A DNA stretch of 64,000 nt from Streptomyces actinomycinicus. Lineage in GTDB: Bacteria > Actinomycetota > Actinomycetes > Streptomycetales > Streptomycetaceae. The notes beneath the pieces are model-generated. The model saw nothing but the letters and a program-made list of their open reading frames with translations. It searched no databases and was not told where the DNA came from. The position numbers were made by a program, and so were the translations under genes. The first letter of the stretch is position 1; the number at the start of each line of letters is the position of its first letter. This document shows positions 29,890 to 37,854 of this stretch, one piece after another. Where the stretch lies: assembly GCF_016741775.1 (NCBI RefSeq), contig NZ_JAERRK010000012.1, positions 62,001 to 126,000 of the forward strand. Direction: 5' to 3'.

Positions 29890-30702
29890 TCAGTCCCTGG
29901 CGGTCAGGGAGAGGGTCCGCCGGGCCAGGGCCACCACCGCCGCGTCGATGAAGCGGCCGTCGGGGAGGGCCTGGGCGCCCTCGTTCGTCGAGGCCGCCTT
30001 GATGATCGTCTCGGCGTGCTCGATCTCCGCTTCCGTGGGCAGGTAGGCCCGTTCGATCACCGGCAGCTGGCGCGGGTGGATCGCGGCGCGGCCCAGGAAG
30101 CCCAGGGCGCGGCCGTGGGCGCAGGAAGAGGACAGGCCGTCGAGGTCACGGATGTCCGGGTAGACCGTCTGCGGGGGTGGGGCCAGGCCCGCCGCCCGCG
30201 CGGCGACGATCACCCGGGAGCGCGGCCAGTCGAGGCCCGTCTCGGCCCGCACCCCCAGGTCGGCCCTGAGGTCCGCCTCGCCGAGGGCGATGCCCCGCAG
30301 CGACGGGTGGGCGGTCGCGATGGTGTAGGCGAATTCGATGCCCACCGCCGACTCCAGCAGGGCGTACAGGGGGAGGGGGGTCGCCGCGGCGACCTGCCTG
30401 ATCTCGCGCGGGGACGTCACCTTCGGAAGCCGCAGTCCGGACACGCCCGGCAGGGCCGCCAGCATGGTCAGGTCCGCGGCCGCCCAGTCGGTGTCCAGGG
30501 CGTTGACGCGGACGTGCACCGGAACCGGCTGCGGCTCGGCGAGGAGTTCCGCGGTGGCCGCGCGGGCGTACTCCTTGCGGTCCGGGGCGACCGCGTCCTC
30601 CAGGTCGACCACCACCACGTCGGCGCCCGCCACCAGCGCCTTGGCCACCACGTGCGGGCGGTCGCCGGGGACGTAGAGCCAGGTCAGCGGGAACCGGGTC
30701 AC
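29890..30702 (-). CDS. CitE-like (HpcH/HpaI family) CoA-ester lyase
   Basis: 270 aa TIM barrel. CitE/malyl-CoA/citramalyl-CoA lyase type: LYVPGDRPHVVAKAL, VVVDLEDAVAPDRK, RVNALDTDW with the substrate Arg, LPKVTSPREI, LLESAVGIEFAY with a metal Glu, ALGEADLRADLG with a metal Asp, GFLGRAAIHP. GTG 30702 overlaps the CoA-transferase stop by 4 nt. Paired with the CoA-transferase, it could split a hydroxyacyl-CoA such as citramalyl- or malyl-CoA. Substrate unknown. The last gene of a seven-gene minus-strand set. Confidence 0.88.
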   Translation of the reverse strand: MTRFPLTWLYVPGDRPHVVAKALVAGADVVVVDLEDAVAPDRKEYARAATAELLAEPQPVPVHVRVNALDTDWAAADLTMLAALPGVSGLRLPKVTSPREIRQVAAATPLPLYALLESAVGIEFAYTIATAHPSLRGIALGEADLRADLGVRAETGLDWPRSRVIVAARAAGLAPPPQTVYPDIRDLDGLSSSCAHGRALGFLGRAAIHPRQLPVIERAYLPTEAEIEHAETIIKAASTNEGAQALPDGRFIDAAVVALARRTLSLTARD

Positions 30703-31904
30703 AGGGCACCCTCCGCGCGCAGCGCCGCGATGTCGGCCGGGGTCAGGCCCAGCTCGGTGAGCACGGCCTCCGTGTCGGCACCGTGCGGCCGGCCGGCCCA
30801 GCGGATCGCGCCGGGCGTCGAGGAGAGCCGGAAGAGGACGTTCTGCATGCGCACCGGGCCCAGCTCCGGGTCGGCGACCGTGGTGACCGTGCCCAGCGCC
30901 CGGTACTGCGGATCCGCCAGCACGCCCCGGACGTCCTGGACCGGAGCCACCGCTGCCTCCGCCTTCTCGAAGGCCGCGAGCACCTCGGTCCGGTCGCGGG
31001 CGGCGATCCAGGAGCCGACGGCCTCGTCCAGCACATCGGCGTGGGCGGCCCGGTCCGCGCCGGTGGCGAACCACGGCTCCTCGACCAGATCGGGGCGGCC
31101 CACGAGCCGCAGCACTCGTTCGGCGACCGACTGCGCCGAGGTGGAGACGGCGACCCAGCAGCCGTCGGCAGTGCGGTAGGTGTTGCGCGGGGCGTTGTTC
31201 GCGGACCGGTTCCCGGTGCGTTCCTGGACGTGGCCGAGCTGGTCGTACCAGGTCGGGTGCGGGCCGAGGACGGCGAGGATCGGCTCGATGATCGCCATGT
31301 CGACGACCTGCCCCCGGCCGGTGTGCTCGCGCGCGGCCAGCGCCGTCAGCACGGCGTACGCGGTCGCCAGGCCGGCGACCGAGTCGGCGAGACCGAAGGG
31401 TGGCAGCGTCGGGGGCGCGTCCGGTTCGCCGGTGACCGCGGCGAAGCCGCTCATCGCCTCGGCGAGGGTGCCGAAGCCGGGCCGGTGCGCGTAGGGGCCG
31501 AACTGGCCGAACGCGGTGACCCGGGCGAGCACCAGCCGGGCGTTGGCCGCCGACAGCTCCGGCCAGCCGAGGTCCCACTTCTCCAGGGTGCCCGGGCGGA
31601 AGTTCTCGATCACCACGTCGGCGGTGGCGGCGAGCCGGAGCAGGGTGGTCCGGCCGCCGGCGGTGGACAGGTCGAGGGTGACGGTCCGCTTGTTGCGGCC
31701 GAGCACCTTCCACCACAGGCCGACGCCGTGCTTCGCCGGGCCGTGGCCCCGGGACGGGTCGGGACGCCGGGGATGCTCGACCTTGATCACCTCGGCGCCG
31801 AAGTCACCGAGCAGGGTGGCGGCCATCGGGCCGGCGAAGAGAGTGGCGAGGTCCAGCACGCGCAGGCCGTCCAGGGCGGGGCGCGTCCGTGTCGTCGTAC
31901 TCAT
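30699..31904 (-). CDS. Class III (CaiB/BaiF/Frc) CoA-transferase
   Basis: 401 aa. Conserved start LRVLDLATLFAGPMAATLLGDFGAEVIKVEHP, VIENFRPGTLEKWDLG, GFGTLAEAMSGFAAVTGEPD, and GQVVDMAIIEP. In Frc and Mcr the eighth residue after GQ is the catalytic Asp; here it is Glu207. The ATG at 31904 overlaps the kinase stop by 4 nt; upstream in-frame codons lie in that gene. It probably activates the acid cleaved by the CitE-like lyase. Confidence 0.88.
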   Translation of the reverse strand: MSTTTRTRPALDGLRVLDLATLFAGPMAATLLGDFGAEVIKVEHPRRPDPSRGHGPAKHGVGLWWKVLGRNKRTVTLDLSTAGGRTTLLRLAATADVVIENFRPGTLEKWDLGWPELSAANARLVLARVTAFGQFGPYAHRPGFGTLAEAMSGFAAVTGEPDAPPTLPPFGLADSVAGLATAYAVLTALAAREHTGRGQVVDMAIIEPILAVLGPHPTWYDQLGHVQERTGNRSANNAPRNTYRTADGCWVAVSTSAQSVAERVLRLVGRPDLVEEPWFATGADRAAHADVLDEAVGSWIAARDRTEVLAAFEKAEAAVAPVQDVRGVLADPQYRALGTVTTVADPELGPVRMQNVLFRLSSTPGAIRWAGRPHGADTEAVLTELGLTPADIAALRAEGAL

Positions 31905-32794
31905 GCGGTGAACTGCGCGTCGATCTCCGGGCGGTACGGCATCGACGCCGATGCCCCGGCCCGCTGGACGGAGATCGCCGCGGCGGCGGCCGCCCACGAC
32001 AGGGCCTCGCGTACCGGTTTCTCCTCGGCGAGGGCCACGGCGAGCGCGCCGGCGAAGGTGTCGCCCGCCCCGGTGGAGTCGACGGCGGTCACCCGGGGTG
32101 CGGGAACCACGAGCGGTTCGGTGCCCCGGGCCAGGTACAGGCAGCCCGTCGCGCCGAGGGTGACGACGACCTCCGGTACCAGGTCCACCAGGGCGGCTGC
32201 CGCCTCGCGCGGGTCGGTCCGTCCGGTGAGGGTGACCGCCTCGTACTCGTTCGGCACCAACAGGTCGGTGGCGGCGAGGAGTTCGGGTGGGAGTGGCTGG
32301 GCAGGGGCCGGGGTGAGGATCGTACGGACGCCGTGCCGGCGGGCGGCCTCGGCGCCCGCGACGACCGCGGCCGTCGGGATCTCCAGCTGCAGCAGCAGGG
32401 CGTCGGCGGAGGCGATCACGCCTTCGTCACCGGGCGATAGGTGGTCGACGGTGCCGTTGGCGCCGGGGACGACGACGATCGCGTTGCCGCCCTCGTCGTC
32501 CACCACGATGTGCGCGGTACCGGTGGGGCCCTCGACCGTGCGCAGGAAGTCGGTGTCCACGCCGGAGTGTTCGAGGGTGTCACGCAGCCGCACACCGAAG
32601 GCGTCGTTGCCGACCGCGCCGATCATCGAGACGGTGGCGCCCGCGCGGGCCGCGGCGATCGCCTGGTTGGCGCCCTTGCCGCCGGGAATCGTACGGAACT
32701 CCCGTCCCGTCACCGTCTCCCCGCGCTGCGGGGCCTTGCCGACGTAGGCGACGAGGTCCATGTTCGTGCTGCCGAGGACGGCGATGTGGGTCAT
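31901..32794 (-). CDS. PfkB-family sugar kinase, ribokinase-like
   Basis: 297 aa. Ribokinase features: GSTNMDLVAYV, PGGKGANQAIAAARAG near 37-52, GNDAFG, IVVVPGANGTVD, LLVPNEYEA, and STGAGDTFAGALAVAL with the catalytic Asp near residue 250. Phosphorylates ribose or a ribose-like sugar by ATP. It directly follows four ADP-ribosylglycohydrolases with 4-nt overlaps, so it may use ribose or ADP-ribose products they release. Substrate not proved. Confidence 0.9.
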   Translation of the reverse strand: MTHIAVLGSTNMDLVAYVGKAPQRGETVTGREFRTIPGGKGANQAIAAARAGATVSMIGAVGNDAFGVRLRDTLEHSGVDTDFLRTVEGPTGTAHIVVDDEGGNAIVVVPGANGTVDHLSPGDEGVIASADALLLQLEIPTAAVVAGAEAARRHGVRTILTPAPAQPLPPELLAATDLLVPNEYEAVTLTGRTDPREAAAALVDLVPEVVVTLGATGCLYLARGTEPLVVPAPRVTAVDSTGAGDTFAGALAVALAEEKPVREALSWAAAAAAISVQRAGASASMPYRPEIDAQFTA

Positions 32795-34152
32795 GAGCGG
32801 GTCGCCTCCAGGTGGGTGAGGTGGGCGAGGGTGTCGAAGCCGCTGCCGTCGAAGTCGGCGACGGTGCTGGCGAGCCGGTTCTTCAGCGGGGTCCGCCAGC
32901 GGTCGGGGATCGCGGTGGGGGTGCCGGCGAGGAGGCCGGCGACGCTGCCCGCGGTCGCCCCGTTCGAGTCGGTGTCCCAGCCGCCGGAGACGGCACGGCA
33001 GACGGAGCCGGTGAAGTCGCCGTCGGCGTGGGTCAGGGCGGCGGCGATCAGGGCGGTGTTGGGCAGGGCGTGCACCCAGTGGTGGGTGGGGCCGTAGCGG
33101 GCGTGGAGCTGGTCCACGACGTCGTCGAAGTTCTCCTCGGCCCGGGCCAGCCGGACGGCGTGGTCGATTGCCTGCGCCAGGCGGGAGCGGGGCGGTACCA
33201 CGGTGCGGCCGGCGCGGAGGCAGTCGTGGATGTCGTGGCGTCCCGTGGCGGCGGTGGCGATCACGGCGGCCGTGAACATCGCCGCGTAGACGCCGTTGGC
33301 GGTGTGGGTGAGGACCGCGTCGCGGTGCGCCTGTGAGGCGGCGGCGGCCGGGTCGCCCGGGTTGGTCCAGCCGTGCACGTCGGCACGGATCAGGGCGCCG
33401 ATCCACTCGCGGAACGGGTTGCGGTGGCGGGCCGTGAGCGGGGGCTCGATGCCGGCGAGGAGGTTGCGGTGGGCGAGGCGCTCGGCGGTGAAGGTGCGGC
33501 CGGGCGGGAGTTCCTCCAGCCACAGCCGGGCGACGTCGTCGGTGCTGAAGGACCTGCCGTGGCGCTGGAGCAGGAGGAGGTTCAGGAGCGGGTAGTCGAG
33601 GTCGTCGTCCTCGGGCATGCCGTCGATGTTCTCGGCGAGTGAAGTGGCGGCCGAGCGGCGGTTCCAGGGGTGGGCGTCGAGCAGCTCCCGCGGGACGCCC
33701 CGGGCGGTGAAGTAGCCGTTCAGCGGCCAGTTGCCGACGGCACGGGCCAGCGCGCGGATGCCGTCGAGGGGGAGTTTCTCGACGGGTTTGCCGAGCAGAC
33801 AGCCGATGGCCCGGCCCAGCCAGGCGGCCTCCAGGGCGCGCGCGGCGGGGGCCGGGGCGCCCGCCCGGGGCGGCCAGTCCGGGCAGAGGGCCCTGATCCC
33901 GGCCAGGTCCGTCGGCTCGTCGTCCGCCAGTCTGCTCGGCAGGTCCGCCAGTTCGTCCAGCAGGTCCTCGGCCAGGAGGCGGAGATAGCGCGACGCCGGG
34001 ACCGGTGAGGCGCCGGCTCGTTCCGGGGCCTCGGTCCCTCCGGCCGCCCGCCACCTGGCCTCGATCCGCGACGGCTCCCGGCCGTCCAGCCGGGCCTGGC
34101 GGATCTCGTGGCCCAGCAGGTCCTCCGGCTGCACCCAGGTCAGTCGGAGCAT
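32791..34152 (-). CDS. ADP-ribosylglycohydrolase family protein (copy C)
   Basis: 453 aa. Extra N-terminal helical domain of about 105 residues, then the ARH fold. Motifs: GCLLGKPVEK (Cys118, Glu125) where others have GDALG; EDDDLDY (181-187); and GGWDTDSNG with Asp393, Asp395, Ser396. The metal set seems complete, in the 'GCLLGKP' subfamily. It overlaps the next ARH by 13 bp and the kinase by 4. A reversal of ADP-ribosylation or hydrolysis of an ADP-ribose-like compound is inferred from the fold. Confidence 0.88.
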   Translation of the reverse strand: MLRLTWVQPEDLLGHEIRQARLDGREPSRIEARWRAAGGTEAPERAGASPVPASRYLRLLAEDLLDELADLPSRLADDEPTDLAGIRALCPDWPPRAGAPAPAARALEAAWLGRAIGCLLGKPVEKLPLDGIRALARAVGNWPLNGYFTARGVPRELLDAHPWNRRSAATSLAENIDGMPEDDDLDYPLLNLLLLQRHGRSFSTDDVARLWLEELPPGRTFTAERLAHRNLLAGIEPPLTARHRNPFREWIGALIRADVHGWTNPGDPAAAASQAHRDAVLTHTANGVYAAMFTAAVIATAATGRHDIHDCLRAGRTVVPPRSRLAQAIDHAVRLARAEENFDDVVDQLHARYGPTHHWVHALPNTALIAAALTHADGDFTGSVCRAVSGGWDTDSNGATAGSVAGLLAGTPTAIPDRWRTPLKNRLASTVADFDGSGFDTLAHLTHLEATRS

Positions 34153-35342
34153 GGGCCGCCTCCGAGTGCGGTGAAGGCCCGCTCGTGGGCGCGCCGGCGG
34201 CGCACGTCCCGGGCGAAGATCTCACCGGTGACCTCGGTGAGCGCGCGGGCCGGCGCCCACAGGTCCAGGCGGCTGGCGTCCGCGACCGTCTTGGCCCACT
34301 CCTCGGGCACGGGCGAGCCGAGCGCGCCCGCGAGGGCACCGGCCATGGTGGCGATCGAGTCGCAGTCCCGGCCGTAGTTGACCGCGCCGAGGACGGCGTG
34401 CCGGTAGTCGCCCCCGGAGACGACCAGCATGCCCAGGGCGACGGGGAGTTCCTCGATGCTGTGCAGCCGGGAGGGGCGGCGGGCGTCGAGGGAGGGGGCG
34501 CGGTAGTCGGGTCCGACCGTGTCGTACGGGGCCACCGCCGTACGCAGCGGACCGAGCGCCGACTCGAAGTCCCGGTGCCGGGAGGCGACTTCGCAGACCT
34601 TCTCGATCGCCGTGCGGGTGCCGTCCCGCGCCAGGGACAGACAGGCGGCCACGACCGAGTCGGGGGTCGCGCCGGGCGTGGCCGCGGCGGCGACGGCCGC
34701 GGCCAGGACACCGGCCGCCTCACGGCCGTACGACGACTGGTGCGCGCCGGCGACGTCCAGCGCCTCCGCGTAGGCGGCGGCCGGGTTCGCCGCGTTGACC
34801 AGCCCGACCGGGGCCATGTACATCGCCGCGCCGCAGTTGACGATGTTGCCGACGCCCGCTTCCCGGGGGTCGGCGTGTCCGTAGGCCAGCCGGGCCACGA
34901 GCCACTTCTCGGCGAGGAAGACCCGGTGCAGCGGCAGCGCCTCGGCCTCCAGCTCCGGGATCCAGCGCGGGTTGGTCATCAGGTCCGGGACCAGGTGGTC
35001 GGCGATCGCGTACGCGTCGAGGTGGTCGCGGACCCGTTCGTAGACCCGGACCAGGGCGTGGGTCATCAAGGTGTCGTCGGTGACGTGGCCGTCGCCCTTG
35101 TGGTACGGCGCGAGGGGGCGGGCGGTGCGCCAGGCGTCGCCGTGCCAGGGGCCGACGACGCCGCGGACGCGGCCGCCGTGGCGCTCGGCGATCTGGTCGG
35201 GGGAGTAGCCCTCGACCGGGCCGCCGAGGGCGTCCCCGACGGCGGCGCCGACCAGGGCGCCGGTGATGCGGTCGGCGAGACCGTGCGGGGAGGGCCCACC
35301 GTTTTCTTCTTCTTCGAGTCCTTTGGGCTCCTTGGGCGTCAT
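34140..35342 (-). CDS. ADP-ribosylglycohydrolase family protein (copy A)
   Basis: 400 aa. Canonical ligands: GDALGGPVEG (Asp37, Glu44), VTDDTLMT (Thr88-Asp89-Asp90-Thr91), and GRDCDSIATMAGAL (Asp326, Asp328, Ser329). The acidic leader MTPKEPKGLEEEEN is unusual. Start ATG 35342; an ATG at 35354 touches AGGAGG and is less likely. It ends 13 nt inside copy C. Confidence 0.9.
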   Translation of the reverse strand: MTPKEPKGLEEEENGGPSPHGLADRITGALVGAAVGDALGGPVEGYSPDQIAERHGGRVRGVVGPWHGDAWRTARPLAPYHKGDGHVTDDTLMTHALVRVYERVRDHLDAYAIADHLVPDLMTNPRWIPELEAEALPLHRVFLAEKWLVARLAYGHADPREAGVGNIVNCGAAMYMAPVGLVNAANPAAAYAEALDVAGAHQSSYGREAAGVLAAAVAAAATPGATPDSVVAACLSLARDGTRTAIEKVCEVASRHRDFESALGPLRTAVAPYDTVGPDYRAPSLDARRPSRLHSIEELPVALGMLVVSGGDYRHAVLGAVNYGRDCDSIATMAGALAGALGSPVPEEWAKTVADASRLDLWAPARALTEVTGEIFARDVRRRRAHERAFTALGGGPCSD

Positions 35343-35350
35343 GCCCCGAA

Positions 35351-36469
35351 TCATCCTCCTGGACGGGCCGGTTGCGCGGCTTCCAGGAGTCCGGCGAGTT
35401 CCACCAGGTCGGTGCCGGTGAGCCGGGGCAGGGCGCAGCCCGACAGGGTGCGGCAGGCTTCCCGCCAGGGCTGCGGGACGGCCGCGCCGCCGCTGAGGGC
35501 TCCGGTCAGTGCGCCGGCGAGGGCCGGGGCGGAGTCGGCGACCCGGGACAGGCAGGCGGCGGCGGGCACGGCCTCGGCGATACGGCCCCGGGCGGCGGTC
35601 GCGAGGGCCAGGGCGACGGGAACGGTCTCGGCGGCGGCGATGCCGTAGCTGTAGACGTGGTCGACGATCTGGTGTTCCAGCAGGGGTACGAGGGCGAAGG
35701 CGGAGTCGCTGTCCTCGGCGAGGGCGAGCGCGTGCCGGGCGTTGCGGCCGATCTCCGTGTCCGGGGGAAGCTCGGCGAGCGCGGCCGTCACACAGGTGTC
35801 CGTGTCCGCGTCCGCGAGGGCCAGCGAGAGGGCGGCGGCCATGGCACGGGCGCCGTGCACGCCGTCGCCGTCCTGGGTGTACCGGGCGTCGAACTCGGCC
35901 AGCGCCGCGGCCTCGCGGTGGTCGCCGGGGTGGGCCACGGCGAGGACACAGGCGCGGACGCAGGCGGCGTCGTCGAAGTAGTGCGGGTTGTCGTGGCCGG
36001 TGGCGGGCGGGCGCAGACCGGTGGCGAGGTTGCCGAGTCCGGCGCGGACGGAGATCCGGGCGCGCAGCGGGAGCACGGCCGACTCGACCTCCGGGGCGCG
36101 GTCCGCCGCGGCGGCGACCTCGGAGGCCACGGCGGTCCAGGTGAGGTCGATGGCGGCGCGTACCCGGCGGGCCCGGCTCAGGTCGCCCAGGACGTCGTCG
36201 TCGCCGGCGCGCAGGACCGCCTCGGCGGCGAACACCGCCCACTCGGCGTCGTCGGAGGGGCCGAGGCGCAGGGGTTCGGGCGGCTGGTTGAGCGCGATCG
36301 GCACCGGGAGGGTGGTGGTGGCGTTCTGCTCCGCGAAGGTGTCCAGCTCGCGGGTGAGCCTGCGGGTCCACTCGGGCATGCGGGCGGCGCGGTGCCGGGC
36401 CGCGGGCCAGCCGGCGGCGTCCCCGGCGGCGAGGCCGAGGAGGAGGCCCTCGATACGGCGCCGTGTCAT
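35351..36469 (-). CDS. ADP-ribosylglycohydrolase-like protein with degraded active site (copy D)
   Basis: 372 aa. The ARH fold is recognisable (IEGLLLGLAAGDAAG; DDAEWAVFAAEA), but key residues differ: the Glu of GDxxGxPxE is Ala24 (GDAAGWPAAR), the TDDT motif is SDDA (72-75), and the D-x-D-(S/T) motif is VADS (Val310, Asp312). It may be an inactive partner or bind a different ligand. ATG 36469 overlaps the upstream gene by 4 nt; it ends 8 bp before copy A. Confidence 0.85.
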   Translation of the reverse strand: MTRRRIEGLLLGLAAGDAAGWPAARHRAARMPEWTRRLTRELDTFAEQNATTTLPVPIALNQPPEPLRLGPSDDAEWAVFAAEAVLRAGDDDVLGDLSRARRVRAAIDLTWTAVASEVAAAADRAPEVESAVLPLRARISVRAGLGNLATGLRPPATGHDNPHYFDDAACVRACVLAVAHPGDHREAAALAEFDARYTQDGDGVHGARAMAAALSLALADADTDTCVTAALAELPPDTEIGRNARHALALAEDSDSAFALVPLLEHQIVDHVYSYGIAAAETVPVALALATAARGRIAEAVPAAACLSRVADSAPALAGALTGALSGGAAVPQPWREACRTLSGCALPRLTGTDLVELAGLLEAAQPARPGG

Positions 36470-37854
36470 GGCCGCCCCTCGCTCTCCTGGTGCCCGGCGT
36501 TCCCGGCCCCGACCAGGGAACTCCGCCCCCTGGACCCCCGGCCCTCCGCCCACCCCTCACCCGACTCGCCGGGTCGAGCGGTGGCGGCCGGGAGCGGGGC
36601 CGGCTCGGCCGGCTGCGGGGCTGGGGGTTGGAGGGGTGGTTGGAGGGCGGGTGGTTCGGTGGGGTGAGGGGTGGCGGCGGGCGGGAGCGGGGCCGGTTCG
36701 GCCGGCTCGGGAACCGGGGGGTGGAGTGCGGGTGGTTCGGCCGGCTGGGGGGTGCTGGTGTCGGGGTGGGCGGGGGGCGGGGGCAGGGCCGTTTCCGTCG
36801 TTCGGAGCAGTTCCCGCAGCGGATCCGGCATCGCCACGTCCGCCCCCCACTTCCCGCCCTCCTCCGGCACGAGCAGTTCCGCGACGTCCAGGACGTGGTG
36901 GCCCGCCATGGACGGCAGGCAACGCCCCCGGGCCGGTCCGATCGCCGCCGCCCAGGACGCGGGGATCGCGGAGATGCCCTGGGACGCTCCGGACAGTGCA
37001 CCGGCCACCGCCGCCGTCGTGTCGGCGTCACGGCCCATGTTGACGGCCGTCAGGACCGCTTCCCGGAAGTCGCCGTCGGCCGCCGCGTACGCGCCGAACG
37101 CGAGGGCGACGGCTTCCGGCGCGAGGTCGGTCCAGGGATAGCCGCCGATGACGACCGCGCGGCGGACCGCACGTTCGCCGTGGTGGGCCGCGGCCACCGC
37201 GCGCCGCAGGGAGCGGGCCGTCCAGGAGTCCTCCGGGACCACCGCGAGGGCGGCGGCGATCACCACCGGCACCGGCGCGCCCGTCATCGCCGCGGCCACG
37301 CCCGCCGCGACCGCCTGGCCGCCGTAGATGCCCTCGCCCTCGTGGCTGACCGAGCCGTCGACGGCGACCAGGCGGGCCGCCTCGGCGGGGCGCCCGGCGG
37401 CGAAGACCCCGAAGGGCGCCGCCCGCATCGCCAGCCCGTCGCTCCAGGCGTGCCGGTGCTGGGCCGAGATGGGCGCCGCGAGACCCCGGCGGAGGTTCTC
37501 CAGGGTGCCGCGTTCACTGAAACCGGCGCCCCGGAAGGGGCCCTCGGCCCGGTCGGCGATCCACTTGTGCCAGGCTGCCTCCACCTGCGCCGGGGTGAGC
37601 GCCGAGCCGTGCCGGGCGAGCAGCAGACCGGAGAAGATCGCGTACTCGGTGTCGTCCGTGCCGCAGGGCCGCTCGGCCACGTACCCGGTGATCCGCCCCC
37701 AGCGGGCCCGGATCTCGGAGGGTTTGAGGTTCTCCGCCGGTGCCCCCAGCGCGTCGCCGACGGCCAGGCCGAGCAGCGCACCCCGGGCCCGCTCGCGGAG
37801 GCCTGGGGCGTCCCCGGGTGCCGGGACCGGGGGAGTGCAGGCGATCGATGCCAT
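36466..37854 (-). CDS. ADP-ribosylglycohydrolase family protein with Pro-rich tail (copy B)
   Basis: 462 aa. Canonical ARH: GDALGAPAEN (Asp34, Glu41), GTDDTEYA (Thr66-Asp68), NMGRDADTTAAVAGAL (Asp276, Asp278, Thr279). After about residue 345 comes a disordered tail with repeated PAEPAPLP and TPHPTEPPAL. First gene of the minus-strand set: AAGGAGG lies 8 nt before ATG 37854. The longer frame starting at 37947 has no support. The gene has a repeat-rich 3' third. Confidence 0.9.
   Translation of the reverse strand: MASIACTPPVPAPGDAPGLRERARGALLGLAVGDALGAPAENLKPSEIRARWGRITGYVAERPCGTDDTEYAIFSGLLLARHGSALTPAQVEAAWHKWIADRAEGPFRGAGFSERGTLENLRRGLAAPISAQHRHAWSDGLAMRAAPFGVFAAGRPAEAARLVAVDGSVSHEGEGIYGGQAVAAGVAAAMTGAPVPVVIAAALAVVPEDSWTARSLRRAVAAAHHGERAVRRAVVIGGYPWTDLAPEAVALAFGAYAAADGDFREAVLTAVNMGRDADTTAAVAGALSGASQGISAIPASWAAAIGPARGRCLPSMAGHHVLDVAELLVPEEGGKWGADVAMPDPLRELLRTTETALPPPPAHPDTSTPQPAEPPALHPPVPEPAEPAPLPPAATPHPTEPPALQPPLQPPAPQPAEPAPLPAATARPGESGEGWAEGRGSRGRSSLVGAGNAGHQESEGRP

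Follow-up and report, generated by a model that had tools for sequence, protein, structure and literature searches.

Why would a gene for a protein of the ADP-ribosylhydrolase (ARH) family be retained when part of its active site is gone? The window, that is, the whole stretch of 64,000 nucleotides analysed here, carries four ARH copies, A to D, all of which match PF03747, followed by a kinase gene. The second copy, B, was originally predicted to be an inactive protein between active-looking neighbours, perhaps a scaffold, an ADP-ribose sensor or a subunit. The features on which our analysis rests are as follows.

36466..37854, minus strand: A, ARH paralogue with the full catalytic equipment and a proline-rich tail at its C-terminus (PF03747, E 2.8e-59)
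35351..36469, minus strand: B, putative pseudo-ADP-ribosylhydrolase of 372 aa (PF03747; AlphaFold2 model with the ARH fold)
36398..36400, minus strand: Ala24 codon of B, at the place of the catalytic Glu, equivalent to ARH3 Glu41 (B translation, orthologue alignment)
36266..36310, minus strand: B-specific loop, residues 54-68 (LPVPIALNQPPEPLR), highly conserved, pLDDT <50
36245..36256, minus strand: Ser72-Asp73-Asp74-Ala75 of B, equivalent to TDDT, with the Mg A ligands retained (orthologue alignment)
35963..35995, minus strand: HDNPHYFDDAA, residues 159-169, a B-specific conserved motif with Asp166 and Asp167 invariant
35531..35542, minus strand: Val310-Ala-Asp312-Ser313 of B, equivalent to DxD(S/T), with the first Asp, a Mg B ligand, gone (orthologue alignment)
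34140..35342, minus strand: C, ARH paralogue with intact motifs GDALGGPVE, TDDT and DCDS (PF03747)
32791..34152, minus strand: D, divergent ARH paralogue with an N-terminal extension of about 100 aa (PF03747)
31901..32794, minus strand: ribokinase-like PfkB kinase (TIGR02152, E 1.2e-94, above its cut-off)

The neighbours of B do look active, as had been claimed, with GDxxGxPxE, TDDT and DxD(T/S) present in both A and C. The overlapping ends also ascribed to B are real on the side of A, where the two genes share the 4 nt ATGA, but not on the side of C, which is separated from B by 8 untranslated bases and has an AGGAGG upstream. The gene overlap, together with the conservation described below, suggests that B is expressed.

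Fold and metal site of B

B matches PF03747 with an E value of 3.3e-34 over residues 8-333, covering positions 1-286 of the 287 in the profile, and its 119 bits (cut-off 26.2) make it the weakest match among the four copies. No match to the DraG equivalog TIGR02662 was obtained at E up to 1, and the score against the Tri1 model NF041672, 19 bits, lies below the curated cut-off of 490. An AlphaFold2 model built from 67 aligned sequences reached a mean pLDDT of 89.8 and a pTM of 0.92. When this model was used in a fold search, the best 37 entries were ARH proteins, DraG or ARH-like chains of larger complexes, with Z scores of 25-30 over about 270-320 residues. Human ARH3 was among the best matches (Z ~29-30), and superposition on it gave Z ~30 and an rmsd of 3.0 over 292 residues at 18-20% identity. 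DraG shares the same fold (Z 27-28), but B, unlike DraG, has lost active-site residues. By profile match and predicted structure, B is a true, all-helical ARH-fold protein. The sole stretch of at least three residues below pLDDT 50 is the loop at residues 54-68, which few parts of the B family surpass in conservation. Being conserved yet unsettled in the lone chain, this loop may be a candidate contact or ligand loop.

We then mapped B on ARH3, whose Mg A is held by the protein ligands Thr76, Asp77, Asp78 and Asp316, and whose Mg B is held by Asp314, Asp316 and Thr317 (PMC8141533); a review also counts Glu41 among the critical ARH3 residues (PMC9738213). The translation of B reads GDAAGWPAA (Ala24), PSDDAEW (Ser72-Asp-Asp-Ala75) and SRVADS (Val310, Asp312, Ser313). 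All Mg A protein ligands are therefore kept in the mapping, as Ser72, Asp73, Asp74 and Asp312, while the first Asp of Mg B is missing, its place (ARH3 Asp314) being taken by Val310, and the Glu is missing at Ala24. Both replacements had been proposed before, Ala24 for the Glu of GDxxGxPxE and Val310 for the first Asp of DxD(S/T), and both are borne out by the translation and by the orthologues. The original prediction went wrong in counting SDDA as a further loss. Active ARH1 carries 54-SDDT-57 with Ser as a metal ligand (PMC9738213), and the fourth residue of the TDDT motif is absent from the ARH3 ligand list (PMC8141533), so SDDA is not a loss of ligands. By alignment, B thus has two real losses, not three.

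What such losses would do can be gauged from ARH3 mutants. ARH3 D314A, altered at the equivalent of Val310, loses Mg B only, keeps Mg A and is inactive; it binds ADP-ribose 44-fold more weakly in a nearly unchanged pose, and every metal-ligand mutant tested was inactive on serine-linked ADP-ribose (all PMC8141533). Compared with wild-type ARH3, an active enzyme, B is further missing the counterpart of Glu41. By homology, the expected state of B is a one-metal, inactive site. The residue losses and the published mutants thus lend good support to the view, already voiced in the original prediction, that ordinary ARH catalysis would be lost in B, which probably still holds one Mg.

Conservation and graded loss of the site

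The losses are not peculiar to this genome. A survey of homologues, which the original prediction had suggested, finds the same changes throughout the 157 distinct sequences of B: V, L, Q or I stands at position 310, Asp never, and position 24 is A, G, V, R or L in 155, with Glu in the other 2. Changes fixed so widely are attributable neither to chance nor to sequencing error. Asp73, Asp74, Asp166, Asp167 and Asp312 are invariant (157/157), position 72 is Ser or Thr in 154 of the 157, and conservation reaches 97% or more at 100 of the 372 positions of B. None of 136 distinct A orthologues has lost any of the seven catalytic positions, and Asp34, Glu41, Thr66, Asp67, Asp68, Asp276, Asp278 and Thr279 (A numbering) are invariant. 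Median dN/dS values are 0.21 for B, 0.18 for A, 0.25 for C, 0.35 for D and 0.32 for the kinase; B is under strong purifying selection, about as strong as that on A.

B occurs in many, though not all, Streptomyces; two more genera of its family have it, as do further families within the class. Absence of B was not judged in two genomes (G189 and G372), in which A lies at a contig end. One further apparent loss of B (G010, locus L190) was rejected, the locus having an assembly gap.

A tree of 51 ARH sequences places A and B each in one clade (support 97/92 and 100/99, respectively), and the branching order of the lineages matches inside the two. Within the B clade the site is reduced to different degrees. 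In L176 and L177, B lacks only the first Asp of DxDS, with the Glu and TDDT kept; in L178 the Glu is lost as well; and in the main B group both are gone and the fourth TDDT residue is Ala. A distant B, L180, has lost all metal ligands and kept HDNxHYFDD and YSY, details that are less certain owing to its long branch and its placement by partial alignment. Loss of the first Asp is the single change common to every member of the clade.

A probable partnership of B with A

If the site is gone, the setting of the gene may tell what B is kept for. Of 73 loci with flanks of 5 kb to either side, every one has A adjoining B, and in L176, L177 and L178 the A-B pair occurs without adjoining C and D. In three loci a single open frame spans A and B (936 codons in L133, 1206 in L186 and 898 in L187); neither domain is truncated, and the 60 codons upstream of the B core contain no ATG, GTG or TTG. 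Since L186 and L187 are close relatives and L133 is distant from them in the B tree, these frames probably represent at least two independent fusions, judged from the sequences. Two genomes depart from the usual arrangement. In one (G012), a rearrangement puts A 1.7 Mb from B-C, with all of them retained, in favour of a partnership; in the other (G277, locus L191, 4444-7162), D comes straight after an intact A and both B and C are missing, through natural deletion or an assembly fault. Unless the latter applies, A can exist there without B, which speaks against the partnership.

Three other single-frame candidates were rejected. The apparent A-B fusion of S. misionensis (L110) is really an N-filled gap, and the B-C frame of L134 and the C-D frame of L081 have pieces in adjacent frames and seem to be frameshifts. 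An AlphaFold2 model of the L133 fusion had a pTM of 0.48 with its A half covered by three sequences only, MAFFT having put B rows there alongside A rows; it defines no interface, and we took it as evidence neither for contact nor against. The evolutionary rates of A and B correlate across deep branches (partial r 0.82, all loci), but at 0.26 within Streptomyces the correlation is unremarkable; we thus gave it little weight and rejected it as proof of contact.

Given the residue losses, the long retention beside A and the two fusions, B is more probably a non-catalytic partner of A than a broken gene, and we consider it probable that B is a pseudoenzyme kept for binding and for supporting or regulating its paralogue A. 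B would have lost one of the two catalytic Mg sites together with the catalytic Glu and would be unable to perform normal ADP-ribosyl hydrolysis; A and B, made from one gene cluster, would touch; and the effect would fall on A, through its activity, stability or substrate choice. The earlier idea of a subunit is thereby supported and narrowed to A by the conserved order, the pairs without C and D, and the two fusions.

The earlier notion of an ADP-ribose sensor is possible but not favoured. B could stand alone as a ligand sensor that uses one Mg, at Ser72, Asp73, Asp74 and Asp312, to bind, but not cleave, ADP-ribose or a similar nucleotide, and signals to other proteins. The invariance of Asp73, Asp74 and Asp312 despite lost catalysis would fit such a role, as would the Mg A and the ligand pose kept in ARH3 D314A. 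Yet ADP-ribose binding by that mutant is 44-fold weaker, L180 does without all of these ligands with other B motifs retained, and the fusions suggest work with A, although a sensor domain could also be fused. On balance we regard a stand-alone sensor as unlikely.

B might instead still be an enzyme, one that has switched substrate and works with a single metal or with substitute acids such as Asp166 and Asp167. These two are invariant in B, and an altered activity would be in keeping with the strongly conserved core. Against this, the graded losses from L176 and L177 to L180 look like relaxation of a metal site rather than its re-design, and no tested ARH3 metal-ligand mutant was active on serine-linked ADP-ribose (PMC8141533), which makes a changed enzyme quite unlikely in our judgement.

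Similarly improbable, we think, is that B serves the whole A-B-C-D-kinase cassette, and not A alone, as the scaffold of a multi-enzyme complex that processes ADP-ribose or ribosyl groups. In favour of this, Streptomyces and other families of the class share the order A-B-C-D, mostly with the kinase after it, and neighbouring genes overlap or lie almost end to end. But the A-B pairs of L176-L178 lack C and D, the order in L180 is C-D-A-B, and the sound fusions join A and B alone. Finally, broken copies in some genomes (L139, L193) might suggest a decaying gene heading for loss, but a dN/dS about as low as that of A, the highly conserved positions across 157 sequences and the presence of B in several families make this very hard to believe.

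Related proteins and neighbouring genes

An inactive ARH paralogue is already established in vertebrates. ARH2/ADPRHL1 resembles B in being an ARH paralogue whose metal-site residues are altered and for which no hydrolase activity is known (PMC9738213, PMC7390403), but it is eukaryotic and muscle-specific, whereas B is bacterial and paired with A; in the literature compared, we found no link or fusion of ARH2 with an active ARH. Nor did the open-access literature that we searched yield any account of an ARH pseudoenzyme from bacteria that is paired with an intact paralogue. The B fold is further shared by chains of the chloroplast Orf2971/Ycf2-FtsHi motor (8xks_Q and 8xqw_G, Z 25-27) and of trypanosome mitoribosome assembly (9hny_FP and 6sga_FP, Z ~19), which are eukaryotic or organellar and are likened to B by fold alone. 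As they sit in multi-protein machines, they set a precedent for the ARH fold as a building block. These chains may themselves be further non-catalytic ARH proteins.

Four consecutive DraG/ARH homologues of S. coelicolor, SCO2028-SCO2031, are listed as uncharacterised hydrolases (PMC9411070), three of them also in PMC5087735. From the gene order beside gltB (SCO2026), A is probably SCO2028, B SCO2029, C SCO2030 and D SCO2031. Purified SCO2028 and SCO2030 were inactive on uracil-ADP-ribose, and SCO2029 was absent from the set (PMC13036486). In Streptomyces, ADP-ribosylhydrolase-like genes far outnumber known transferases and have so far been counted as hydrolases. If B is a non-catalytic partner, assays on single proteins may have overlooked an activity for which A and B are both required; for SCO2028 by itself, the only reported substrate gave a negative result. 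The A-B pairing can be tested directly with the help of the graded losses and the natural fusions.

A broader proposal takes in the whole cassette. A-B-C-D-kinase could be an undescribed actinobacterial system for ADP-ribose or ribosyl processing, with an obligate A-B heterodimer of enzyme and pseudoenzyme, in which B has been shedding its metal site stepwise since duplication and D passes ribose to the ribokinase; this we offer tentatively, as rather doubtful. A PADLOC defence search gave no match for any of the four ARH genes.

C and D overlap by 13 nt, and D and the kinase by ATGA. Within Streptomyces, no partial rate correlation is higher than that between D and the ribokinase-like gene (0.47), which with their ATGA overlap hints that the product of D could feed the kinase. 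The motifs of D are unusual: GCLLGKPVE has Cys where GDxxG has Asp, PEDDDLDY stands at the place of TDDT, and DTDS is kept. D falls in a separate ARH clade that also holds another gene of the same genome (L008). The distant B homologue in the cassette ordered C-D-A-B lies at 5504-7606 of L180 (genome G526).

The tail of A (36466-36850) is a proline-rich, low-complexity stretch of about 120 residues that reaches the start codon of B. It is not conserved across species, and a similar stretch forms the linker in the natural A-B fusions. At the other end, the operon seems to extend beyond the kinase (window positions 30000-31904): a CoA-transferase-like gene that shares ATGA with the kinase gene starts at 31904, and the start of a CitE/HpcH-like gene lies near 30702, both named by eye from their translations.
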